NCBI GenBank assembly: GCA_951802115.1
Contig: CATOPL010000002.1
Location: 248,001-312,000 of the forward strand
Source of the DNA: an uncultured Lachnospiraceae bacterium
GTDB lineage: Bacteria; Bacillota; Clostridia; Lachnospirales; Lachnospiraceae
Direction of reading: 5' to 3'
Length of the DNA stretch: 64,000 nucleotides
Below the pieces are notes generated by a model. It had not been told where the DNA came from and searched no databases. It saw nothing but the letters and a program-made list of their open reading frames with translations. Every line of letters starts with the position of its first letter. Positions within the stretch are counted from its first letter, which is position 1. Shown here piece after piece: positions 3,102-30,161 of the stretch. Position numbers and translations under genes: made by a program.

Positions 3102-4074
3102 AATAAAATACAGGGCGGCCTGTCTTATACTGGTGTTCTGTTTTTTGCTGTCCGGCTGCAGCAGGACAAAAATTGTACTTACAACGGGACTGGCTTCAGA
3201 TGAACTGTTCCGGATCGGAGAAATATCCTGTATGCTTCCGGAAGCGCTGGTCTATCTGATGAATCAGAAAGGTACTTACGAAAAAATATACGGGATCGAT
3301 ATGTGGGAACATGCGATGGGAGACGGGACGATGGAAGAATACCTGAAAAGTCAGGTGCTTTCCGAGCTTGCACAGGTAAAAAGTATGGTTCTTCTGGCGG
3401 AAGAACAGGAAATTGCATTGAGCGAGACAGAAACGGCGCATGCATCGGAAGCTGCTGCGGAGTATTTTGCCTCTCTGAACAAAGAGGAAGTTGCCGCTTT
3501 GAAAATAGATCAGGATACAGTCAGAAAAATGTATGAAGACTATTGCCTTGCTTTTAAAACCTACAGACAGATTACAGAAGATGTAAGCATTGAGATCAGT
3601 GATGACGAAGCGAGGATTATCCAGATTCAGCAGATGTTTGTGCCGGAGGAAGGCCTTGCCCGTGACCTGAGAGACAGGCTTGAAGAAGGAGAAGACTTCG
3701 GAGTCCTTGCCGCCAATTATTCGCGGCTTTCTCAGACAACGCTTTTCATTGCCAGAGGCGATAAAGGCGGCGAGTATGAAGAAGTGGCATTTGAACTGAA
3801 CAATGAAGAAGTCAGCGATGTTTTTGCAGCAGACGAAGGCTATTATATTCTGAAATGCCTGAATACTTATGTGGAAGAGGAATCTGAGGCCAACAAACTG
3901 CAGGTGGCGCAGAAGCAGAAGACAGAGCGTTTTCAGAGCATTTATACAGAACTGATGAAAGACACTTTGTCAGAGCTTCAGGAGAAGCTGTGGGACAAAG
4001 TGATTTTTGCAGATTATGAAGAAGTGCAGACGAGTACATTTTTTGAGGTCTACAGAAAATATTTTGAAGAGTAA
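3091..4074 (+). CDS. PrsA/SurA-like peptidyl-prolyl isomerase lipoprotein
   Basis: The start at 3091 gives MKNKIKYRAACLILVFCF followed by a lipobox LLSGC, a type II signal peptide, with the ribosome site GAGGAGGTG just upstream. The mature protein (327 residues in all) has a helical SurA/PrsA-like N-terminal domain and a C-terminal parvulin-like stretch (about residues 180-265). In that stretch, IQIQQMFVPEE, EGEDFGVLAANYS, GGEYEEVAFEL and YYILKCLN follow the rotamase order. Such lipoproteins help fold secreted proteins outside the membrane. Some catalytic parvulin residues look divergent, so it may be chaperone-only. It overlaps the HAD gene upstream and ends 2 bases before the convergent aminotransferase gene. 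Confidence 0.75.
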   Translation: MKNKIKYRAACLILVFCFLLSGCSRTKIVLTTGLASDELFRIGEISCMLPEALVYLMNQKGTYEKIYGIDMWEHAMGDGTMEEYLKSQVLSELAQVKSMVLLAEEQEIALSETETAHASEAAAEYFASLNKEEVAALKIDQDTVRKMYEDYCLAFKTYRQITEDVSIEISDDEARIIQIQQMFVPEEGLARDLRDRLEEGEDFGVLAANYSRLSQTTLFIARGDKGGEYEEVAFELNNEEVSDVFAADEGYYILKCLNTYVEEESEANKLQVAQKQKTERFQSIYTELMKDTLSELQEKLWDKVIFADYEEVQTSTFFEVYRKYFEE

Positions 4075-5301: not shown

Positions 5302-8300
5302 ATGAAAGAGAAGATAACGGATTATTTTAATGGAATATTTTCCTACAGGCAGGCCGGACTCAGGACCGAGCCGGAAGAACTGGTATTTGAACTGGAATCC
5401 TGGGAAAAGGCAGAAGGCAGTTTCGTGATCACTTCCAAAGACGAGCGCAGGATAAAAGGGTTTCTGCACACCCGAATCCCGGGTATGACCCTGCGCAGAG
5501 ACAGTTTTTTTGCCAGAGCGGCCAGGGTGGAGTATACCTACCAGCCGCAGTGCCTTAGAGAAGGCGAGACGACAGAGGGTTGGATCTGGCTTGAAACCAG
5601 TGCAGGAGAGTATGCATTACCGGTTAAAGTACGGATAAAAGGGAACGAGAAAAAAGAGGAGCCGGAGGAGGAGCTGCCCATATTGCTGGCAGGAGAAAAG
5701 GAGCTTACGGTCTGTCGTACAGGAAAAGGTCAGAGCGCGGAGTGGAAAATGAAGCGACAGACAGAGCAGTCGCTGGCAGAGATCCAGATTATACTGGAAA
5801 AAGAGCGAAGAGAAATTTTAAGCAGACAGGAAGCAGACGAACAGCTTCGTAAACTGACAGATATTCTGATCAATTCCGATCCGGAATCGCTGCTTTTTCC
5901 TCTTTTAGATGCATGGGTTATGCTTCGGGAAGGCAGAAAAGAGGAAGCGGGACGGATTGTTAAAAAATATGAGAAAACCCGCCTGCTTCAGCAGAAAGAA
6001 ATGTCTGTGCGGGCTGTTTTTTTGTATGTGAACAGTCTTTTGTGGGAAGAGGAAGATGTGACGGCTTCGGCAGTTTCTCAGCTTCAGAGAATCTATCAGA
6101 AACAGCCGGAAAACTGGATGGTAACGGCATTCTTGCTGGAGCTGGATACAAAGCTCTGGGAAAATGTGCGGGTTCGTTATATGGTGCTGGAGAGACAGTA
6201 TCGGGCGGGAACGAGGAACAGGCTTTTGTATCAGGAAGCATTTTCTGTATTAAAAGGAGACATGGCGCTGTTTACCAGACTGGACCGGTTCACGCTTCAG
6301 GTTTTTGGCTGGGCGGCGTCCTGCGGTCTTCTGACAGAGGAAACAGCTCAGGCTGTAGCAGTTCAGGCAGTCAGGATCAAAAGGTGGTCTCCTCTGGCAG
6401 CGCGCCTTTTAAAAACATGTTATCAGGTACATCCTTCAAAAGAAACGGCCGGCGCCGTATGCTCTGTGTATATCCGTGGGAATCGAACGGACAGAGAAGC
6501 TTTTGAATGGTATGAAAAGGGCGTGGAATGGGACGCGAAGATCACGAATCTTTATGAGTATTTTATTTATGCTCTTCCGGAGGGCTATAAAAAAATTCTT
6601 CCCAGACAGGTGCTTCTCTATTTTCACTATCATAATACACTGTCAAACCAGCAAAAGACAGAGTTTTACTGCAACCTTATCAAGTATGGGACAAAAGGCG
6701 ACCCGGTTGTTGAAGAACACCGAAGGTTTCTGCAGGAGTTTCTGTTTGAGCAGCTCAGAGGACGGAAACTGAATGAATCACTGGCGTGGCTGTATGGAAA
6801 ATGCCTGCTGGCAGAGACTTTGGAAACGGATCTTCTGGAGGCGCTGGCAGATCTTCTGTTTCTGCAGAAAATAACCTGTGAAGAAAAAAGAATTCGGCAG
6901 GTGGAGGTTTGCTATGAACAGCTGGAAGAAACCATATCGGTTCCTCTGACAGGGGGGTGTGCCTGTATACCGGTTTATACAGAAGATGCAGAGATTATCC
7001 TTGTGGATGAACGCGGAAAAAGACATCGGAAGACAGTGCCGTACGAACGGAAACGTCTGATGATCGAACCGGGCTTTCTGGAGCTTTGCAAGGCAAAACT
7101 GAACAATCATCTGGGGATAACGCTTTATTTACTGGACGGAAAAGGAAAACACAGGCTGAATGAAGATAATCTGCCTCTTGTCTGGAAACTTCTGGAAGAT
7201 GGGCGTGTGAGAGAATCTTACAGGCAGCAGCTTAAGATTGAACTGCTGAATTATGAAAGAAAACACCGCAGGCTGGAAGAGATCAATGAACGGCTGCTGT
7301 TTTCTGATGCAGAAGTACAGAGTCTTTCCAGAAAATGTCAGGTATCTTATATAGAGACTTTGATTCTTCTTCAGAAAGATGAAGATGCGCTTCGTCTTCT
7401 CTGGAAAACCGGATGCAGGGAGACGGACGCAAAACTGCTGCTCAGACTGCTGCAGCGTCTGGCGGCGGAGGGGAGAACTTCCAGAAACCTGCTTTTGCCT
7501 CTGGCCCGCCAGGTGTTCGACAAGGGGGTATATACAGAACAGATCATAGAGATGCTGGCAGAGACGGGAACAGGGGACACAAAGGAGCTTCTGACACTCT
7601 GGAAGGCAGGGGATCAGTTCGGCATGTCGCTGCCGGAACTGGAAGAACAGATTGTCGCTCAGGCACTTTTCACGGAGACGTGTATCTGTGAAGTTTTTCC
7701 TGTATTTTTGTCAATGGACGACAGAGGCGGGGAAGCGATGACGGGTATTGCCTATTTGAATTATTTAAGCTGGCTGGATTTTGTGAAAGGGCAGGATGTG
7801 CCGGAAGGTCTGTTTGACAGTCTGGAACATCATCTTCTGTGGGAAGATCATCTGCATGAAACAGCTGTTTTGTCCTGGCTGAAGCAGCTTTCTGTCCTGC
7901 TGCTTCTGACAGAGGTCCAGAAGCGTCTGGCAAAAAAATTTTTAGAAGAGCTGACAGTGAAAAACCGGCGATTTGCATTTATGAAGAATCTGCTTCCGTA
8001 TATGGGAGAGAAGGCAAGGCCTGAGCATCAGGCAGTAGTGGAATACCGGTGCGATCCGGAACATAAAGTGGTTCTTCATTATGTTCTGGAATATCATGGG
8101 AAGAAAACCTTCGATTATGTGTCTGAACGTCTCTATCCGGTCTGTGGCGGAGTTTTTGTAAGAGCGTTTATTCTGTTTTACGGAGAGAGACTGACCTGGT
8201 TTATTACAGAAACCTTTGCGGATGGGACTGAGATCTCTACTGAGTGCAGGACAATGGAAAACAGGGAAGAAGATCCGGAAGGAGACAGCCGCTACAGCAG

Positions 8301-10347: not shown

Positions 10348-11247
10348 ATGAAAAAGTTAATTGCGGTAATGCTGGCAGGCGTTATGACAGCGGCGATGGT
10401 GACAGGATGCGGCGGAAATAATGACGGTACACCGGCGGATGCTCCGGCTGAGACAGAGGCGCCTGCAGCGGACGAGGCGCAGACAGAGGAAGGAGAAAGC
10501 ACAGATGCCGTATCAGAGGAGACAGAAGTCGCTTCTGAAGAGAGCGATATGGCGTATGTCAAGGATAAAGGGACGCTGGTGGTAGGTATTACAGACTTTG
10601 AGCCGATGGATTATAAAGATGAAAGCGGCAACTGGATCGGCTTTGATGCAGATATGGCGACGGCATTTGCAGAGAGTCTGGGAGTTGCGGTTGAATTTGT
10701 GGAGATCAACTGGGACAGCAAGATTATGGAGCTGGATGGAAAGACGATCGACTGCGTATGGAACGGCATGACGCTTACAGACGAAGTGAAAAGTTCTATG
10801 GAATGTTCCAATGCATACTGCAACAATGCGCAGATTGTGATCGTTCCGGCAGACAAGGCGGAACAGTATCAGGATATCGACAGTCTTTCCGGGCTGAACT
10901 TTGCAGTAGAAGGAGGCAGTGCAGGTGAAGAGCAGGTCAGCAGTCTGGGACTCGATTTTACAGAAGTCACGGCGCAGTCTGATGCGCTGATGGAGGTTGC
11001 AGCAGGCACTTCTGATGCGGCGGTGATCGATTCTCTGATGGCGGCGGCAATGGTAGGCGAGGGTACCGGCTATGCGAATCTGACTTACACTGTGGGCCTG
11101 AACAGTGAAGAGTACGGCGTCGGTTTCCGTAAGGGTTCGGATCTGGCAGCAGCGCTGAATGAGTTTTTTGTTTCTGCATATGCAGATGGAAGTATGGAAA
11201 CGATTGCTGAAACTTATGGAGTACAGGCTGCAATCATTGCACAGTAA
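10348..11247 (+). CDS. Polar amino-acid ABC transporter substrate-binding lipoprotein
   Basis: The 299-residue protein has a lipoprotein signal (MKKLIAVMLAGVMTAAMVTG with lipobox VTGC). An Ala/Glu-rich linker follows (about residues 27-65), then a family-3 solute-binding domain: GTLVVGITDFEPMDY, WIGFDADMATAFAESLG, IDCVWNGMTLTDEV. It is anchored outside the membrane and delivers an amino acid or close analogue to the permease encoded downstream; the exact ligand is not readable. AGAGGAGGAA precedes the ATG. A terminator-like hairpin between this gene and the permease should make binding protein more abundant than the membrane parts. Confidence 0.92.
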   Translation: MKKLIAVMLAGVMTAAMVTGCGGNNDGTPADAPAETEAPAADEAQTEEGESTDAVSEETEVASEESDMAYVKDKGTLVVGITDFEPMDYKDESGNWIGFDADMATAFAESLGVAVEFVEINWDSKIMELDGKTIDCVWNGMTLTDEVKSSMECSNAYCNNAQIVIVPADKAEQYQDIDSLSGLNFAVEGGSAGEEQVSSLGLDFTEVTAQSDALMEVAAGTSDAAVIDSLMAAAMVGEGTGYANLTYTVGLNSEEYGVGFRKGSDLAAALNEFFVSAYADGSMETIAETYGVQAAIIAQ

Positions 11248-18812: not shown

Positions 18813-20727
18813 TCCAAGGACAGTCAGAGGTCCCGGCGCCCGGGGAATGCGCGGCGGGCAGGGAAGCAGGAATCCGGGAAAGACTTTAAAGCGCCTGCTG
18901 GCGTATATTTGGAAAGACTATAAAATCCACTGCATTGCGGTGGCGGTAAGTATTGCGGTCAGTTCCCTCACCGGTGTGATTGGAAATCTGTTTCTGAGAA
19001 GTCTGATCGACGATTATATTCTGCCGTTTCTGGGGGAGACAGATCCAAGTTTTGCACCGCTGCTTCACGCGCTCATTGTGATGGCATGCATTTATTATGC
19101 GGGTACAGCGGCGACTTTTCTGTATGCCAGGCTGATGATCGTTATCACGCAGGGCGTGTTGAAAGAGATTCGGGATGAGATGTTTATGCATATGGAACGT
19201 CTTCCTATTAAATATTTTGACACTCATGCACATGGGGATATTATGAGTTGCTATACCAACGATACAGACACCCTGCGCCAGATGATCAGCCAGAGTATTC
19301 CCCAGATGCTCAGTTCCTCCATCACCATTGTCAGCACGTTTATATCCATGCTGGTTTTAAGCGTGCCGCTGACCGTGTTGATTATATTGATGGTTGTGGT
19401 TATGGTGCGGGCCGTACGTTTTATCGGCGGTCGAAGCGGTATGTATTTTATCCGTCAGCAGAAGTCTCTGGGAGTGCTGAACGGCTATATTGAAGAAATG
19501 ATGGAGGGGCAGAAAGTAGTTAAGGTTTTCTGTCATGAAGTAGAGTCCAAAGAGAAATTTAACCGTCTGAACGACGATCTGTTCAACAGCGCCAAAAGCG
19601 CCAACACTTTTGCCAACATCCTCATGCCTGTCATGGCCAATCTGGGAAATATCAATTATGTGCTGACTCTGGGAGTAGGCGCGGTGTTCGCAATTAATGG
19701 TATCGGGGGGCTGACTTTGGGAGCGCTGGCATCGTTTCTGCAGCTTACCAGGAGCTTTAATATGCCTATTACCCAGGTGTCCCAGCAGTTTAACTCTATT
19801 ATTATGGCGCTGGCAGGCGCGGAGCGGATCTTTGATCTTCTGGACGAGCCGGAAGAAACAGATAACGGTTATGTAACGCTGGTCAATGTGACGGAGGAGC
19901 CGGACGGAACGCTGAAGGAATCAAAAGAGCGGACCGGAATCTGGGCGTGGAAACATCCTCATAAGGCGGAGGGAACCATTACCTATAAGAAGCTGGAAGG
20001 GGATGTGGTTCTGGACGGTGTGGATTTCGGATATACGGATGACAAGATTGTGCTGCACGACATTAAAATGTACGCCAATCCGGGTGAGAAGATTGCCTTT
20101 GTGGGCGCTACCGGAGCCGGCAAAACTACGATTACCAATCTGATCAATCGTTTTTACGACATTCAGGACGGAAAAGTCCGGTATGACGGTATCAACATTA
20201 ATAAAATCAAAAAGCCGGATCTGCGGCGGTCGCTGGGAATGGTACTGCAGGATACGCATTTGTTCACCGGTACGATTGCGGATAACATTCGCTATGGGAA
20301 GCTTACTGCCACGGATGAAGAAGTTGTGGCGGCGGCAAAGCTGGCCAATGCCCATTATTTTATTACCAGACTTCCGGACGGGTACAATACCATGTTAAGC
20401 GGTGACGGCACCAGCTTGTCTCAGGGAGAGCGCCAGCTTCTTGCCATTGCAAGAGCAGCCATCGCGGATCCGCCGGTGTTGATTCTTGACGAGGCGACTT
20501 CCAGTATCGATACCAGAACGGAGACGATTGTTCAGCGGGGGATGGATCAGCTGATGAAAGGCAGGACGGTATTTGTAATCGCTCACCGTCTGTCCACAAT
20601 CAAAAATTCGGACGTGATCATGGTTCTGGAGCAGGGCCGTATCATTGAGCGGGGCAATCATGACTCTCTTCTGGAAGAGAAGGGAAAATATTATCAGTTG
20701 TATACAGGAGCGTTTGAACTGTCATGA
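18805..20727 (+). CDS. Heterodimeric ABC exporter, catalytic subunit (BmrD/TM288-like)
   Basis: The start at 18805 (MSNPRTVRGPGARGMRGG) gives 640 residues. A basic, glycine-rich N-terminal extension of about 30 residues precedes the six-helix membrane domain. The ATPase domain has Walker A GATGAGKTT, signature SLSQGERQLLAIARAA and Walker B LILDEATSSID with the catalytic glutamate intact. H-loop is IAHRLST. About 60 extra residues sit between the membrane and ATPase domains (around 355-410), as in other members of this subunit type. Paired with the preceding subunit it should form one asymmetric exporter. It overlaps the downstream phosphatase gene by 4 bases. Confidence 0.93.
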   Translation: MSNPRTVRGPGARGMRGGQGSRNPGKTLKRLLAYIWKDYKIHCIAVAVSIAVSSLTGVIGNLFLRSLIDDYILPFLGETDPSFAPLLHALIVMACIYYAGTAATFLYARLMIVITQGVLKEIRDEMFMHMERLPIKYFDTHAHGDIMSCYTNDTDTLRQMISQSIPQMLSSSITIVSTFISMLVLSVPLTVLIILMVVVMVRAVRFIGGRSGMYFIRQQKSLGVLNGYIEEMMEGQKVVKVFCHEVESKEKFNRLNDDLFNSAKSANTFANILMPVMANLGNINYVLTLGVGAVFAINGIGGLTLGALASFLQLTRSFNMPITQVSQQFNSIIMALAGAERIFDLLDEPEETDNGYVTLVNVTEEPDGTLKESKERTGIWAWKHPHKAEGTITYKKLEGDVVLDGVDFGYTDDKIVLHDIKMYANPGEKIAFVGATGAGKTTITNLINRFYDIQDGKVRYDGININKIKKPDLRRSLGMVLQDTHLFTGTIADNIRYGKLTATDEEVVAAAKLANAHYFITRLPDGYNTMLSGDGTSLSQGERQLLAIARAAIADPPVLILDEATSSIDTRTETIVQRGMDQLMKGRTVFVIAHRLSTIKNSDVIMVLEQGRIIERGNHDSLLEEKGKYYQLYTGAFELS

Positions 20728-21374
20728 AAAAAGCGGTTATATTTGATTTAGACGGAACCCTGCTGAATACGTTGGAGGATCTGTACTTAAGTACCAACGC
20801 GGCGCTGGCGCGGTACGGGTTTCCGCAGCGTACGCAGGAGGAGGTACGACAGTTTGTGGGTAACGGCGCATGGAATCTTATGCGCCGTGCCGTTCCAAAA
20901 GGAGAGAAAAATCCTTATCTGGAAGACTGTCTGAAAGCTTTTCAGGAGCATTATGGAAAACACTTGAACGACCATACAGGACCTTACGAGGGAATAGCGG
21001 CCCTTCTTGAGAAATTATCGGAGAACGGAGTTTTAATGGCGATCGTGTCCAACAAACCGGACTTTGCAGTTCGGGAGCTGAGCAAAAAATATTTTGGAGA
21101 GCATATCCCGGTAGCGATTGGAGAATCTGAAGGAGTTCGCAGAAAGCCGGCTCCGGATACAGTGGAACGTGCCGCCCGGGAACTGGGCGTGCAGATGGAG
21201 GACTGTATTTATGTGGGGGATTCGGAGGTGGATCTGAAGACGGCAGAAAACTGTGCAATTCCCTGTGTGTCCGTAACCTGGGGATTCCGCAGTGAAGAGC
21301 TGCTTTTAAGCCTGGGAGCGAAACATACGGCGGCAGATACAGAAGAGTTGTTTTCCGTGCTGGAGCGTGTCTGA
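20724..21374 (+). CDS. HAD phosphatase, phosphoglycolate-phosphatase (Gph)-like
   Basis: The 216-residue HAD hydrolase overlaps the exporter gene through ATGA. Motif I is FDLDGTLLNTLEDL (nucleophile and acid/base aspartates). A small helical C1 cap follows, motif II lies in AIVSNKP, the lysine is in RKPAPDTV, and motif IV is YVGDSEVDLKTA. Gph-type enzymes clear 2-phosphoglycolate formed in DNA repair, but related enzymes take other phosphates. The last four codons and the stop (21361-21374) coincide with the left end of a repeat that flanks the following cassette. The present C-terminus may therefore have been supplied by the repeat. Confidence 0.88.
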   Translation: MKKAVIFDLDGTLLNTLEDLYLSTNAALARYGFPQRTQEEVRQFVGNGAWNLMRRAVPKGEKNPYLEDCLKAFQEHYGKHLNDHTGPYEGIAALLEKLSENGVLMAIVSNKPDFAVRELSKKYFGEHIPVAIGESEGVRRKPAPDTVERAARELGVQMEDCIYVGDSEVDLKTAENCAIPCVSVTWGFRSEELLLSLGAKHTAADTEELFSVLERV

Positions 21375-21393
21375 AAATTCATCCCGTCGTCTG
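21361..21393 (+). repeat. Left end of an intergenic repeat element, upstream boundary of the ATPase/nuclease cassette
   Basis: Aligned by eye with 26153-26186, 28 of 34 columns match (GAGCGTGTCTGAAAATTCAT versus GAGCATGTCTGAATATTCAT, both ending in CGTCTG). Similarity stops abruptly after 21393, where the cassette sequence begins. The rest of the element reappears only at 23491. Confidence 0.75.
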
Positions 21394-21593
21394 TATGATC
21401 CTGATTCCGGAACCTAAATTGTATGATATGAGACTGATTTTAAGAACCTTATCTGTTCTGAAATATATGGTTGCCGCATATATTCTGTATAAAGGACAGG
21501 CTGACGAGGTTTTGGAAAAAATTGCTTTCCGGCAGAAAATGAGGTATGATAAAATTGTTGAAGAGATCAGTCTTACATGCGGAGAGGATAAAA

Positions 21594-22874
21594 ATGAAAA
21601 TTACAGTAAAAAATGTTGCGAAAATACTGGAGGCAGATGTGGCTCTGGATGGAGTGACAGCCATAGCGGGCTATAACAATATGGGAAAAAGTACTATTCT
21701 TAAGGCGGCATATGTTATTTTTAATACGTTTCGTAATTCAAACAGTAAGATCATAGATGCACGTAAAAGAAGCGTAAGATCTTATTTTCTGAAGCAGGAA
21801 ACCTATTTTGATGAAAACGGATATGACAAACTTCCCCGTAATGTACTGATTGATTTGGCAAATCAGGTAAACGAACATTTACTTGATTTCATGAGCACAA
21901 ATAAAAACGATTATAAAATGTTTAAAAAACTGTTTGTAAAAAGCTTTGAAGTGTATCGGTGGATCTTTTTGGAAGATACGGAAGCGGATTATTTTTTTTC
22001 GGATAAGTTTATAATACCATTGTATAACGGTTTTAAAGAAATCTGTCTGCGGGATAAAAATGAAGATATCAGATATATGGGGGATATGTATATTCTCAAT
22101 GTATTTAAAGGCCAGCTGAACAGTCTGGGAGTCGGGAGTCAGGCTTCCATACATATCGATTCTGACAGAGAGAAATATTTTATATCCGTAAAAGACAATA
22201 AAATAGACGATATGAGCTATTCTGCAAATGCAGGGGGAGATGTTTTTTTCCTTCCGGCATATAATCTGCTGGATATGGTTGGAGCGTCTGTGGACCGCAG
22301 AGTATATTCACCGGAAAACGATATAAGGGATGCGTTGCTTACCATTGAAGAGGAGCCTGTTTTCGAAGAATATCAGGAGATTAAGAGCAATACAAAAGCG
22401 ATTAGAAATATATTGGGAGAAGTGATTCATGGGAAGCTGGACAAGCTCCCATCAGGACAGCTCTCCTTTATGGACAATGATTTAAATGATTACGTCAGCA
22501 TTGGAAATGTCGCTTCGGGAATGAAAAATTTTCTGATCATTCAGTCGCTGGTGGAAAAAGGAAGATTAAAAAGAAATAGTATTTTACTAATTGACGAACC
22601 AGAGACAAATCTGCATCCGGAATGGCATCTGAAATTTGCAGAGCTACTGGTGCTGATGTATCAAAATATGGGAGTTCGTTCGATTGTGAATTCACACAGT
22701 CCGTATTTTATCAGGGCGCTTGAAGTCAAAATGGCGGATTATGGTATGAAAAACAAGGGTCATTATTATCTGATGGAGGAGACAGGAAAAAATCAGTTTA
22801 AAACACAGGATGTAACAGAGAGTACGGACAGAATTTATGAACTTTTGTACCGACCGCTGGAATACTTATCATAG
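21594..22874 (+). CDS. AAA/OLD-type ATPase (AAA_15/AAA_21-like), putative defence protein
   Basis: The start at 21594 (MKITVKNVAKILEADVALDG) follows GGAGAGGATAAAA and gives 426 residues. Walker A is GYNNMGKST (residues 26-34). Walker B is ILLIDEPETNLHPEW (about 330-344), and the histidine switch lies in NSHSPYF (about 366-372). Walker A and B are far apart, as in SMC/Rad50-like and OLD-family ATPases, with a family-specific insertion between them (about 60-290) lacking a recognised coiled coil. Such ATPases are sensor or motor subunits of many phage-defence systems (Septu, Gabija, PARIS, AbiL). The following nuclease-like gene starts 10 bases later. DNA here is visibly more AT-rich than the neighbours, and both genes lie between two repeat ends. 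Confidence 0.85.
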   Translation: MKITVKNVAKILEADVALDGVTAIAGYNNMGKSTILKAAYVIFNTFRNSNSKIIDARKRSVRSYFLKQETYFDENGYDKLPRNVLIDLANQVNEHLLDFMSTNKNDYKMFKKLFVKSFEVYRWIFLEDTEADYFFSDKFIIPLYNGFKEICLRDKNEDIRYMGDMYILNVFKGQLNSLGVGSQASIHIDSDREKYFISVKDNKIDDMSYSANAGGDVFFLPAYNLLDMVGASVDRRVYSPENDIRDALLTIEEEPVFEEYQEIKSNTKAIRNILGEVIHGKLDKLPSGQLSFMDNDLNDYVSIGNVASGMKNFLIIQSLVEKGRLKRNSILLIDEPETNLHPEWHLKFAELLVLMYQNMGVRSIVNSHSPYFIRALEVKMADYGMKNKGHYYLMEETGKNQFKTQDVTESTDRIYELLYRPLEYLS

Positions 22875-22884
22875 AGGATTTATA

Positions 22885-23439
22885 ATGCAGTTTGATGAAT
22901 CGAAAATATACAGTACGTTGGGTGAACGCTCAAAGTCAGACAACGGAGAGGGTTTTATTGAAAGTAACCAGAAGGTCTATGACTTCGATGAAATTACAAA
23001 AGAGGTTGCGAATCGTTATCGCAATAAGAAGCCGGCAGCATCCTGCGACGCTCTGTATTTAAAAGACGAAAGGCATATTTATCTGTTTGAGTTTAAAAAT
23101 GCAAGAAAAAGCCATATCGGAAAAAATTTTTGCAGTCAGAAAGCCTATGACAGCGCGTTGACACTGCTGTTTGCATTTTACAATAATCTTTCTTTGGAAG
23201 AACTTCGGAATCGTCTGTATCTGGTTGTGGTTTACAACGATGATTATGTAGCGGAAAAAGAACAGGAGAGTAAACATTTTCAGTATTTCAAGAATAAGTT
23301 GGAAAGCCTGGCAGGGGTCAGGGACAGAACCTTGTTTGGTCTGGAAGTCTATCAGGGAGTCTTATATAAAAAAGTTATAACAGTGGAAAAAGACTTTTTT
23401 ATGGAACACATTTATAAGGAAATTTTTGGAGAAGAGTGA
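22885..23439 (+). CDS. Putative PD-(D/E)xK nuclease-like partner of the AAA ATPase
   Basis: The start at 22885 (MQFDESKIYSTLGERSKSD) gives 184 residues. A short helix with glutamates (YDFDEITKEVANRY) precedes SCDALYLKDERHIYLFEFKNA, in which D55 and E69-x-K71 have the spacing and strand pattern of a PD-(D/E)xK nuclease core. QKAYDSALTLLFAF follows as a possible catalytic-core helix. The protein may therefore cleave DNA or RNA, or be a degenerate binding version. The gene is coupled to the ATPase gene (10-base gap) in the same AT-rich block. Known ATPase-nuclease pairs use HNH (Septu), UvrD-like helicase (Gabija) or TOPRIM (PARIS) partners, and I do not recognise this one. Nuclease assignment is from the motif only. 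Confidence 0.6.
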   Translation: MQFDESKIYSTLGERSKSDNGEGFIESNQKVYDFDEITKEVANRYRNKKPAASCDALYLKDERHIYLFEFKNARKSHIGKNFCSQKAYDSALTLLFAFYNNLSLEELRNRLYLVVVYNDDYVAEKEQESKHFQYFKNKLESLAGVRDRTLFGLEVYQGVLYKKVITVEKDFFMEHIYKEIFGEE

Positions 23440-23490
23440 AACTTAACAAGAATTATAGCCTGTCACACCGCATTTTTTGGAACAAAGTTT

Positions 23491-23534
23491 TCCACAAACT
23501 GTGATGCAGCTGGCGAAGTAATTTTTAAACAAGC
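23491..23534 (+). repeat. Right end of the intergenic repeat element, downstream boundary of the cassette
   Basis: TCCACAAACTGTGATGC then AGCTGGCGAA and AATTTTTAAACA align with 26263-26313 (CCCATAGACTGTGACGC, AGCCGGCGAA, AATTTTCAAACA). About 80 percent of positions match, with small gaps. It has the same orientation as the left end at 21361, so the two together bracket 21394-23490. The stretch 23535-23640 holds nothing else I could identify. Confidence 0.7.
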
Positions 23535-23645
23535 TCCAATGTTCTGGAATTATATGGTCAGCAAAGAGGTATGTAAGAATCGGGACCTGGCCTGATCTGC
23601 GGTCATAAGCCCAATATTTTGTCTGTTCAGTCATAATCTGTCAAT

Positions 23646-23675
23646 TTGTCATTCGTAAATTCATACTTATATGAT
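23646..23675 (+). promoter_or_regulatory. Promoter of the hemerythrin/CheX/receiver gene
   Basis: TTGTCA (23646-23651), an 18-base spacer, TATGAT (23670-23675). Transcription would start a few bases before the structured leader at 23690. Confidence 0.55.
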
Positions 23676-23751: not shown

Positions 23752-25098
23752 ATGGAGAATCAGCTGGTATGGAAGGATGAATTCAACCTCGGCGTAGAGA
23801 TTATTGATAAAGAACATCAGCGGCTCTTTTCGATTATCAACAAATTGTATGCTCTGGGAGAAGAGGAGCGGAAAGGGAAAAAAGCATGTGAAGAGGGCGT
23901 TAAATATTTTTATGAACATGCCATAAGACATTTTGCGGATGAAGAAAAATACATGGAAGCGATTCATTATGACAATCTGGAAGTACACAGACGGATACAT
24001 AAGGGGTTTCGGGAAGAGACATTGCCGGCGCTTGAGGATGAACTGAAGGAATCGAATTATTCTTCTGATGCAGTGGATCATTTTCTGGCAGTCTGCAGCG
24101 GATGGCTGATTGGCCACACGCTGACGGAAGACCGTGCGATTGCCGGCGGGAAGATGAGCAAGTGGGAAGATCTTCTGCCGGAGGAAGAACTGGAAGTCAC
24201 GAAAAAGGTGATCAGAAAACTTCTGTATCAAATGTTTCAGCTGAAATCCCAGGTGATCAGTGAAACTTATGGTGGCGAGAAGTTCGGAAACGGGGTGTAT
24301 TACCGTCTGGTTTATGGCAGGGAGCAGGATGACAAAAAATGGGAGATCATTCTTGTCTTTGAAGAAAAAATACTGATCAATACTGTGGGGAGACTGATGG
24401 GAGTTCAGTCAAATAAGCTGGATGTTATGCTGATCAATGCGGCCAGATATACTGCCGGGCAGTTTGTAAGTCATGTGATGAAGCATTTTCCGTCGATTGA
24501 GTCCTATGAGATGCAGGAGGAGAATCTTCTGACTTATGAACAGTTCCGGGAGGTATTTGAGAAGAAAAATCCTCAGATCAGTCTGCTGTTCAGTACGGAT
24601 GAAGGATATTTTTCATATTGTGTCATTGCGCCTCATCTTCTGGACGATGAGATCGGTACATCTCTGGAAGTGAATAACGAAGTGACGGAGATTGAAAAAT
24701 ATCTGATAAAAAGAGGCAGAAGTATGAGACACAAGGTGCTGGTGGTGGACGATTCCATGACGATACGGGAGGGAATCCGAAGATTACTGGGAGACGACTA
24801 CGAGGTCTGTGCAGTCCAGTCAGGAATATCTGCTTTTCGGGCGATTACGTTGGATAAGCCGGATCTGATACTGCTGGATTATGAGATGCCGGTTTGTGAC
24901 GGAATGCATGTGTTGGAGATGCTGCGCTCGGAGAAAGAATTTGCGGATGTTCCGGTCATTTTCCTGACCAGCAGAGATGATCCGGAGAGTGTGAAGAAAG
25001 TACTGGCGCTGAAGCCGGACGGATACCTGCTGAAATACCTGAAACCTGTACAGATCAGGGAACGGATCGAAGCTTTTTTTGAAAGGCGGAACAAATAA
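23752..25098 (+). CDS. Bacteriohemerythrin / CheX-like / receiver-domain fusion protein
   Basis: The start at 23752 follows AAGGAGG and gives 448 residues. Residues 1-135 are a bacteriohemerythrin with a plausible full di-iron ligand set: H22, H56 or H60, E64, H79, H83, H122, D127. Residues about 150-320 resemble a CheX/CheC-type phosphatase domain (INAARYTAGQFVSHVMKHF at its core). Residues about 328-448 are a response-regulator receiver with VVDDSMT, phospho-acceptor D376 in LILLDYEMP and a KP motif (LKYLKP). No DNA-binding output is present. The architecture suggests O2 or redox sensing feeding phosphorylation or dephosphorylation of a chemotaxis-like relay. No kinase or chemotaxis gene is adjacent. 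The middle domain is the least certain. Confidence 0.82.
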   Translation: MENQLVWKDEFNLGVEIIDKEHQRLFSIINKLYALGEEERKGKKACEEGVKYFYEHAIRHFADEEKYMEAIHYDNLEVHRRIHKGFREETLPALEDELKESNYSSDAVDHFLAVCSGWLIGHTLTEDRAIAGGKMSKWEDLLPEEELEVTKKVIRKLLYQMFQLKSQVISETYGGEKFGNGVYYRLVYGREQDDKKWEIILVFEEKILINTVGRLMGVQSNKLDVMLINAARYTAGQFVSHVMKHFPSIESYEMQEENLLTYEQFREVFEKKNPQISLLFSTDEGYFSYCVIAPHLLDDEIGTSLEVNNEVTEIEKYLIKRGRSMRHKVLVVDDSMTIREGIRRLLGDDYEVCAVQSGISAFRAITLDKPDLILLDYEMPVCDGMHVLEMLRSEKEFADVPVIFLTSRDDPESVKKVLALKPDGYLLKYLKPVQIRERIEAFFERRNK

Positions 25099-25209: not shown

Positions 25210-26118
25210 ATGAGAGCAAAACAGATGAAAAATAATGCCATGCTGCTTTTGACGGCTTTAATCTGGGGCTGTGCGTTTGTGGCTCAGAGTGTGGGCATGG
25301 ATTATGTAGGACCGTTTACTTTTAATTCTGTGAGATGTATTCTCGGCAGTATTGTGCTGGTGCCGGTGATTTTTCTGATGGACGGATTCAAGAAAAAGAG
25401 CGGAATGAGCAGGGAAGAAATGAAAAGGGAGAGAGGAAGTACCAGAACCCTTCTGACCGGGGGAATCTGCTGTGGTGTGATACTGGGAACTGCCAGCAGT
25501 CTTCAGCAGCTGGGTATCCAGTACACAACGGTGGGAAAGGCGGGGTTCATTACGGCAATGTATATCGTGCTGGTTCCTGTTGCGGGGATTCTTTTCGGTA
25601 AAAAAGTAAAACCGCTGATTTTTCTGTGTGTGGCTTTGGCAGTGACGGGACTGTATTTGCTCTGTATGACGGAAAAGCTGTCACTTGGTATAGGGGATTT
25701 ACTGGTGCTCCTGTGCGCACTGGTATTTACGGTACATATTCTGGTCATTGACCATTTTTCTCCACTGGTGGACGGGGTCCGCATGTCGGCCGTTCAGTTT
25801 CTGACGGCAGGGATTCTCTGCGCAGTACCGATGTTTTTGTGGGAGCATCCTCATCCGGGTGCAATTCTGGCGGCGTGGATGCCGGTTCTGTATGCCGGCG
25901 TCATGTCCTGCGGAGTAGCGTACACGTTTCAGATTCTGGGGCAGAAACATGCGGATCCTACGGTAGCTTCCCTGATTTTGAGTCTGGAGTCTGTTTTTTC
26001 CGTACTGGCAGGATGGTTGCTTCTGAATCAGAATCTGAGCAGAAAGGAACTGTTCGGATGTGTGCTGATGTTTGCGGCGATCATTCTGGCGCAGCTTCCC
26101 GGGAAAAAAGCGGCATAA
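25210..26118 (+). CDS. EamA/DMT-family transporter
   Basis: The 302-residue protein has about ten hydrophobic helices in two EamA repeats. The first begins NAMLLLTALIWGCAFVAQS and contains GFITAMYIVLVPVAGI. The second contains VLYAGVMSCGVAYTFQILGQ and PTVASLILSLESVFSVLAGW. The last two are the usual DMT signatures. These proteins export or import small metabolites such as amino acids or nucleosides; the substrate is not readable. GAGGAGATATT supports the start at 25210. It stands alone between the hemerythrin fusion and the intact repeat element. Confidence 0.9.
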   Translation: MRAKQMKNNAMLLLTALIWGCAFVAQSVGMDYVGPFTFNSVRCILGSIVLVPVIFLMDGFKKKSGMSREEMKRERGSTRTLLTGGICCGVILGTASSLQQLGIQYTTVGKAGFITAMYIVLVPVAGILFGKKVKPLIFLCVALAVTGLYLLCMTEKLSLGIGDLLVLLCALVFTVHILVIDHFSPLVDGVRMSAVQFLTAGILCAVPMFLWEHPHPGAILAAWMPVLYAGVMSCGVAYTFQILGQKHADPTVASLILSLESVFSVLAGWLLLNQNLSRKELFGCVLMFAAIILAQLPGKKAA

Positions 26119-26152: not shown

Positions 26153-26315
26153 TAGAGCATGTCTGAATATTCATTTCCGCCGTCTGAGCGTTCTGTTTTG
26201 CGATATCTTGAACCCGCACCAGGTCAACGCAGCCTGCTGCGCCCTCTTATTCGGGTCCAATCTCCCATAGACTGTGACGCACAGCCGGCGAAAAGCAATT
26301 TTCAAACACACTTTA
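26153..26315. repeat. Intact intergenic inverted-repeat (REP/MITE-like) element
   Basis: The 163-base element has imperfect terminal inverted repeats: TAGAGCATGTCTGAATATT (26153-26171) against AATTTTCAAACACACTTTA (26297-26315), about 13 of 19 complementary. Inside is a second pairing, GAACCCG...ACGCAGC (about 26210-26233) with GCTGCGCC...TCGGGTCC (about 26236-26258). No reading frame or transposase is present. Both ends recur separately at 21361 and 23491. Confidence 0.75.
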
Positions 26316-29253: not shown

Positions 29254-30090
29254 ATGGAAAGCAGAAAAAGAGTAACTCTGGGCGGTATCTGGAGGAGCCT
29301 GTACCCGGTTCTGGTATATCTGTGCATACAGTTTGCAGTCAGCATGATTTGCGCATTCGGAATTGCGATTGCCGCATGGGCGATGTATTCAGGGGCAGGT
29401 TATGCAGATCTGGAAACATATATTATGAATCGTGTGGCAGAAGAAACCTTGACGGTTCTTCTGGCGTCGATGATGGTGTCGATTCCTGTCTTTGGTTGGC
29501 TGTATTATCGTGACGTGCAGAAAAAAAAGCAGTCCGGCTGGAGTGAAGAAGAATTTTCTCTCACAGAGGGCAGGCTTTTGTGGACAGCGGTCGGATGCGC
29601 CGCGCTGGCGATGTTCTGCAATGGAGCAATCAGTCTTTTGCCGCTGGCACAGTGGTCGGACAGTTACGAGGAAGTCAGTGAAACCCTGTACAGCGGGAAT
29701 GTGTGGATACGGATTGCATGTGTCGGGCTTTTCGGACCTGTGGTGGAAGAACTGGTTATGCGGGGACTTCTGTATCAGAGACTTCGTTCCATGATGAAAC
29801 CAGGGGCTGCCATGTTCTGGAGCGCCCTGGCGTTTGGAATCATTCACGGAAATTTTGTACAGGGAGTCTATGCGTTTCTGGTAGGTCTGTTTTTCGCATG
29901 GCTGATGGAGTACAGCCATAGAATCCTGATCCCGATCGCAGGACATATGGCGGCGAATCTGTTTGTTCTGCTTCTGGAGGACTGCAGTCTGCTGGAAATA
30001 ATCTATGGATCCGTGCCGGTATTTTTAACAACGACAATCGCAAGCGGTATTGTGTTCTGGTGCTCTGTGCGGATTATGAAAAATGCTTAA
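29254..30090 (+). CDS. CPBP-family intramembrane glutamic protease (CAAX/Abi)
   Basis: The 278-residue protein has about eight membrane helices. The catalytic motifs of the CPBP (Rce1-like) family are in order: EELVMRG (paired glutamates plus arginine, in GPVVEELVMRGLLYQRL), FGIIHGN (catalytic histidine) and HMAANL near the C-terminus. Bacterial members cleave peptides or act in bacteriocin immunity. The gene lies 1 base after argS and is probably co-transcribed with it, which need not imply a shared function. The convergent aldo/keto reductase gene follows. Confidence 0.88.
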   Translation: MESRKRVTLGGIWRSLYPVLVYLCIQFAVSMICAFGIAIAAWAMYSGAGYADLETYIMNRVAEETLTVLLASMMVSIPVFGWLYYRDVQKKKQSGWSEEEFSLTEGRLLWTAVGCAALAMFCNGAISLLPLAQWSDSYEEVSETLYSGNVWIRIACVGLFGPVVEELVMRGLLYQRLRSMMKPGAAMFWSALAFGIIHGNFVQGVYAFLVGLFFAWLMEYSHRILIPIAGHMAANLFVLLLEDCSLLEIIYGSVPVFLTTTIASGIVFWCSVRIMKNA

Positions 30091-30133
30091 AGGCTGCACA
30101 GGACTTCCGCAGGCGGCGATGCCCGGCTGGCAG

Positions 30134-30161
30134 AAACCGGTATTCAGATACGCTCCGGTTT
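30134..30161. terminator. Possible terminator between convergent genes
   Basis: AAACCGG (30134-30140) pairs with CCGGTTT (30155-30161) around a 14-base loop, followed on the plus strand by ATATTTCTTTT. It touches the stop codon of the minus-strand reductase gene. The stem is short. Confidence 0.4.

Follow-up and report, generated by a model that had tools for sequence, protein, structure and literature searches.

Between a gph-like phosphatase gene and a hemerythrin gene of an uncultured Lachnospiraceae bacterium lies a cassette of two genes whose borders resemble the two ends of an intergenic inverted-repeat element, and an intact copy of this element stands further along the same contig. 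Such an arrangement raises the question of whether the genes entered an element that was already resident, or whether elements of this family travel with genes as cargo. The window, as the whole stretch of DNA analysed is called here, comprises 64,000 nucleotides of contig CATOPL010000002.1 and belongs to a genome of 3.3 Mb in 37 contigs. We consider it likely that an old, resident MITE-like copy, located at the 3' end of gph, was split by a horizontally moving, defence-like module, the element being probably the landing site and not the vehicle.

The repeat family and the split copy

The consensus of the element is 161 positions long, in a model made from aligned genome copies, and forms an imperfect palindrome with two distinguishable arms, named CA-type and GC-type after the bases that follow AATT. 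Being short and repeated, bounded by terminal inverted repeats and devoid of a transposase gene, the element is MITE-like. The full-length model contains 53 aligned rows, some copies being represented by two rows, and positions 21300-23649 of the window were masked in its training. The intact copy of the window (+ strand) was itself part of the training set of this model, with which it scores 130.3 bits, and it matches its own reverse complement at 35.8 bits (E 2.6e-10). At least 46 BLAST matches to this copy (E up to 1) and at least 149 matches to the end model (E up to 1) are found in its own genome, and the stretches read hold 71 distinct segments of at least 18 bits; shorter versions of about 57-95 bases are present too. 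The end consensus, YTA-GAGCGTG, is compatible with a TA-type target, and the flanks of 15 full-length copies hint at a TA/CTA target duplication (53% match at length 3); longer duplications are not seen around them. Element ends also supply the stop codon of 15 distinct ORFs of at least 80 codons (e.g. L008, L013, L015, L127 and window 21363), with endings such as LERV-stop, a count that has no chance control; the corresponding rows number 21 over 133 ends because palindromic copies are counted on both strands.

The family is patchily distributed: under strict filters, a match with an E value of 1e-4 or lower was obtained in 6 of 80 genomes, the own genome included. G035 and G064 contain full copies; in G002, G005 and G010 the matches are to single ends. 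A Lachnospiraceae MAG (L210) is a further host beyond the genomes of this survey. The copy at G035:C5:23207-23375 (L131, L137) is full-length and high-scoring and lies in another genus, most of the 80 genomes being devoid of the element; horizontal spread is a possible origin for it. The exact element pattern is absent from viral contigs, Rfam at gathering thresholds gives no match in the whole window, element included, and no report on this particular repeat was found in the open-licence literature. A search of the own genome for a single transposase family, DDE_3 (PF13358), returned one match, located in interrupted reading frames without matching ends, and thus no transposase partner for the element.

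In the window, a model of the ends, trained on other copies, gives its two best ranks to the ends of the intact copy and the next two to the cassette ends (21363-21396 (+), 24.7 bits, E 1.1e-6; 23536-23490 (-), 22.6 bits, E 5.3e-6). Over the whole 3.3-Mb genome, model R1, made from 46 other ends, finds the left cassette end at 30.6 bits (E 6.4e-7) and the right one at 26.0 bits (E 1.9e-5). With the full-length model, the two flanking matches are complementary halves of one element (Table 1). Joined, they give one match over model positions 2-161 with 52.2 bits, against 21.2 bits for the best of 1871 random joins at equal distance (2000 drawn, less the joins that touched either the cassette or the intact copy; one strand scored). 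This best value equals the score of a fragment at 30099-30155, a decayed GC-type half element just 3' of a gene ending at 30090.

Table 1. Features of the locus (positions in the window).
Feature	Position	Strand	Evidence or remark
gph-like HAD phosphatase gene	20724-21374	+	Pfam HAD_2; C-terminus compared with six same-genus orthologues
Left half of element	21363-21410	+	CA-type arm, model positions 2-50, 20.0 bits, E 1e-4
Module upstream DNA	21454-21593	+	blastn homology to DNA upstream of the module in L181
AAA_15/AAA_21 (OLD-type) ATPase, 426 aa	21594-22874	+	Pfam, PADLOC, sequence relatives
Partner, 184 aa, putative PD-(D/E)XK signature	22885-23439	+	D55, E69-x-K71; K86 nearly invariant
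Right half of element	23455-23536	+	GC-type arm, model positions 76-161, 32.1 bits, E 2e-8
Hemerythrin + response-regulator gene	23752-25098	+	Not present between gph and eamA in the relatives seen
EamA transporter gene	25210-26118	+	Adjoins gph in 3 of 6 same-genus gph loci
Intact element copy	26154-26312	+	130.3 bits, full-length model

These results bear on several statements of a first-pass annotation of the same DNA. It had matched the cassette ends to the two ends of the intact copy, in equal order and orientation, and had pointed to random intergenic regions as the yardstick; the same-strand halves and their distance from the random joins, far above chance, bear this out. Its statement that the hairpin centre is lost holds in part: about 25 of the 161 model positions are absent between the halves (positions 51-75 or about 39-59, depending on the alignment), but much of the centre is kept in the right half. 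The start of the right end, placed at 23491, had to be moved 36 bases further left.

The fold of the joined halves is only mildly more stable than that of shuffled sequences (z -1.7). Their per-base scores are alike, 0.417 and 0.391. Since the other copies sat in the training set, the 52 training rows were rescored by leave-one-out, and 46 and 48 of them outscore the two halves. The halves thus rank among the most decayed members of the family, and their similar, strong decay is as expected of one old copy.

The two-gene module

The cassette holds, as initially described, an AAA ATPase and a protein with a nuclease motif. Among PADLOC models, PD-T4-4_A, HEC-02A (E 2.4e-22), NsnB and AriA match the ATPase of the window, and HEC-02A and PD-T4-4_A match the ATPase in all 33 members scanned. 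Proteins of solved structure that are related to it in sequence include PtuA, AriA and a nuclease of the OLD family. A protein of this size presumably has no room for a TOPRIM domain of the GajA type.

The partner was defined as an ORF of at least 130 codons beside the end of the ATPase gene, and 93 loci were considered: the window, 80 named loci and 12 further ones. An adjacent candidate is found at 84 of them, and one iterated profile matches 83 of these 84, that of the window included: the gene pair is conserved. In an alignment of 48 partners (the window's and 47 of the 71 available in the named loci), residues D55, E69 and K71 are invariant, and they are conserved at 99% among all 84. We take this D ... 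E-x-K motif to be a PD-(D/E)XK signature. The predicted structure of the partner is confident (pLDDT 89.8, pTM 0.85). Pfam provides no match for the window's partner and scattered weak matches only for the 48 members. The sole PADLOC match of the window's partner is weak (PDC-M29B, E 0.014), with no match to HEC-02B; the HEC-02B model with the most matches recognises 10 of the 48 partners, the window's not among them. The HEC-02B labels are mixed, because another model of that name matches 28 of the 33 ATPases. The module is most likely an antiphage system, in which the OLD-type ATPase would sense an infection-related nucleic acid and license the PD-(D/E)XK-motif partner to cut.

Within the family, the ATPase has matches at E up to 1e-12 in 20 of 348 genomes, some of them partial. 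Relatives of the module are carried by prophages. Viral contig L261 encodes a 56% relative together with its partner. Repressor-like and protease-like genes border the pair on one side, an integrase borders it on the other, and an endolysin and an anti-repressor are close by; the L182 genome locus has nearly the same DNA (97.3% over 3657 bases), and an unannotated phage record carries both module genes. Plasmids gave no partner match, and their 22 records with partial ATPase matches include none covering 80% of the query.

The limits of the module were set by cross-species DNA homology, without reference to the repeat. By blastn, L181 matches window 21454-23428 at 69%, and L164 and L180 match window 21518-23434. 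This homology ends 43 bases from the left half and 20-26 bases from the right half, which starts shortly after the partner's stop codon (23437-23439). The module therefore occupies almost the entire interval from one half to the other. At its junctions no duplication was identified (direct-repeat score 31.5, control 95th percentile 32.5), and inspection by eye of the composite edges revealed no clear TA or other target duplication. The string GTNCTGGA, found at both composite edges, is not claimed as a duplication, no long duplication being typical of the family.

Repeats around the module were considered as a general rule. Around the 83 modules with enough flank, flank-versus-flank scores average 24.2 in inverted and 27.6 in direct orientation, against 22.3 and 22.8 for flanks from different loci, a control that ignores the shared composition of two flanks in one genome. 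The rule was not retained: of the ten best-scoring alignments, the majority resemble AT-rich sequence of low complexity, the exceptions being L201, L219 and perhaps L181. In L201, a Clostridiales MAG, direct repeats of about 53 bases, almost identical to each other (5880-5932 and 7902-7956), flank the same kind of module. They look like a duplicated gene start and are perhaps a trace of module integration, so that the module can use routes of entry unrelated to the element.

A significant element match is found at one of the 101 relative module loci scanned. This is L210, where a copy at 10600-10713 lies 2.7 kb downstream of a related module (E 1.3e-10) and a weak match at 3545-3585, on the same strand, lies 2.4 kb upstream (E 0.047). 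The two are not complementary halves; element and module do share a genome.

Landing site or vehicle

The history of the site is readable in part from gph. Its last codons (E-R-V-stop) are the left terminal bases of the element, whose end supplies the gph stop codon: the C-terminus reads VLERV in the window versus VLEELPDRA in G010 and VLQQLGS in G002. The gene is found at E up to 1e-40 in six of the ten other same-genus genomes, with eamA directly 3' of it in G005, G001 and G008, and not in G010, G002 and G004. This adjacency at three of six loci suggests that the interval was filled up in this lineage, by the two halves of the element together with the module and the hemerythrin gene. As for the gph-hemerythrin interval, whose comparison among relatives the first-pass annotation had proposed, the hemerythrin gene is absent from the gph-eamA junction at the three loci. 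Nor was gph seen near the hemerythrin gene at four same-genus loci with close hemerythrin relatives, although one of these, L062, offers only about 200 bases upstream. A 75% relative of the window's hemerythrin/response-regulator gene is present on contig C4 of the own genome.

The search for gene-carrying copies of the element covered 40 stretches of the own genome, each around unpaired ends; 13 or more further unpaired ends, with weaker matches, lie outside these stretches. A complementary same-strand partner of at least 12 bits, on the expected side and within 7 kb, exists for 9 of 41 truncated rows; the control directions give 2 of 41 (outer side, same strand), 5 of 41 (expected side, other strand) and 1 of 41 (outer side, other strand). 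The 12-bit cut-off was chosen after the scores had been seen, and palindromic cross-hits inflate the counts in every direction. The window pair and the L089 pair, each counted twice, account for four of the nine rows, and one cluster (L093) for three; as seven of nine come down to two doubled pairs and one cluster, the excess over the controls is modest. In only one other split element, L089, do the two halves come close to meeting in the coordinates of the model. At L089:3999-4660, a palindromic insert of 501 bases separates positions 1-111 from positions 114-161; it has no evident gene (one ORF of 65 codons), and its edges look by eye like TA-flanked inverted repeats, that is, one repeat family inside another.

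Four further loci were examined as cargo copies and set aside, the partner arm being weak or the model gap large. According to a reading of the translations, L104 encloses dihydroorotase-like and CapA-like genes and L102 a recombinase/SpoIIM-like/proC-like set; L096 encloses many genes. The best of the four, L097, has two halves (positions 1-42 and 113-161) on the same strand, separated by 3.2 kb, and between them lie genes for an AraC-type regulator and a MATE-type transporter, named in the same way; it is not claimed, and is a possible example of a further split copy. Nearly the same translated stretch (AGYVTLAAFAK-CPCKHGTWLIARGNQ-like) occurs at L096:4867-5139 and L097:3606-4625, and probably belongs to another repeat family of the own genome. 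No second gene-carrying copy was established within the 40 stretches.

The earlier alternative, insertion into a resident element or movement with cargo, can now be weighed. Insertion is supported because the halves are complementary, the module limits are independent of the repeat, the decay of the halves is similar, and many relatives carry the module with no element nearby. The MITE-like element, already old, would have been in place at the 3' end of gph when the horizontally moving module landed in it and split it near its centre. We infer a way in by illegitimate insertion or recombination, rather than by the element's own transposition. A mobile insertion cassette, that is, terminal repeats bracketing genes and a composite moved as a unit by a transposase in trans, is unlikely here. 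The ends are present in the right order and orientation, the L097 halves with two genes inside could be another case, and passenger genes between inverted repeats with no transposase are a kind already described (PMC5444012, PMC13367494). Yet a recently moved cassette is expected to have fresher ends than these, which are among the most decayed in the family, and neither the edges of the composite, the interrupted DDE_3 frames (the one transposase family searched) nor the search for a second carrier in the 40 stretches adds positive evidence for cargo. A broader proposal is that copies of this element act as mobile insertion cassettes, take up antiphage modules at the centre of the palindrome and move them in trans. 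It is quite unlikely; if true, intergenic repeats that seem inert would in fact carry defence genes.

Two same-orientation copies, each having lost the half that faces the module, would also produce this picture. Truncated copies are common, composites bounded by two MITE copies are known (PMC13367494), and the same-strand matches on either side of the L210 module could be read in this manner, but two independent losses would have had to leave complementary halves of similar decay, which makes this origin very improbable. Least probable is a coincidence by which unrelated decayed fragments came to flank the module: unpaired ends do occur throughout the genome, but here both fragments stop at the module, lie on one strand and cover complementary model ranges, and their joined score far exceeds that of random joins. 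Insertion into the resident copy therefore remains the preferred reading, and the intergenic repeat most likely served a defence-like module as its landing place; both junctions can be read against the repeat.

Comparison with known systems

The kind of event is already known; the element has no Rfam match and the partner no Pfam family. The module is widespread and prophage-borne, and, with a second protein outside any Pfam family, it is well suited to being tested for activity against phages. With PADLOC's candidate system HEC-02, the module shares a HEC-02A-type ATPase, and some of its partners match HEC-02B models, whereas the window's own partner does not. Its ATPase likewise matches, or is related by sequence to, those of the OLD-type systems PD-T4-4, AriA and PtuA. 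As for the element, RUP of pneumococcus, which we take to be a comparable short palindromic repeat, is an example of the MITEs that are likewise short and multicopy, imperfect palindromes with terminal inverted repeats; the element differs in that a search of one transposase family in one genome brought up no autonomous partner sharing its ends. As in mobile insertion cassettes (MIC/MICE) and TIME composites, the inverted repeats of a MITE-like element bracket passenger genes with no transposase gene among them, but the cassette described here is a single established instance with decayed ends, known from sequence.
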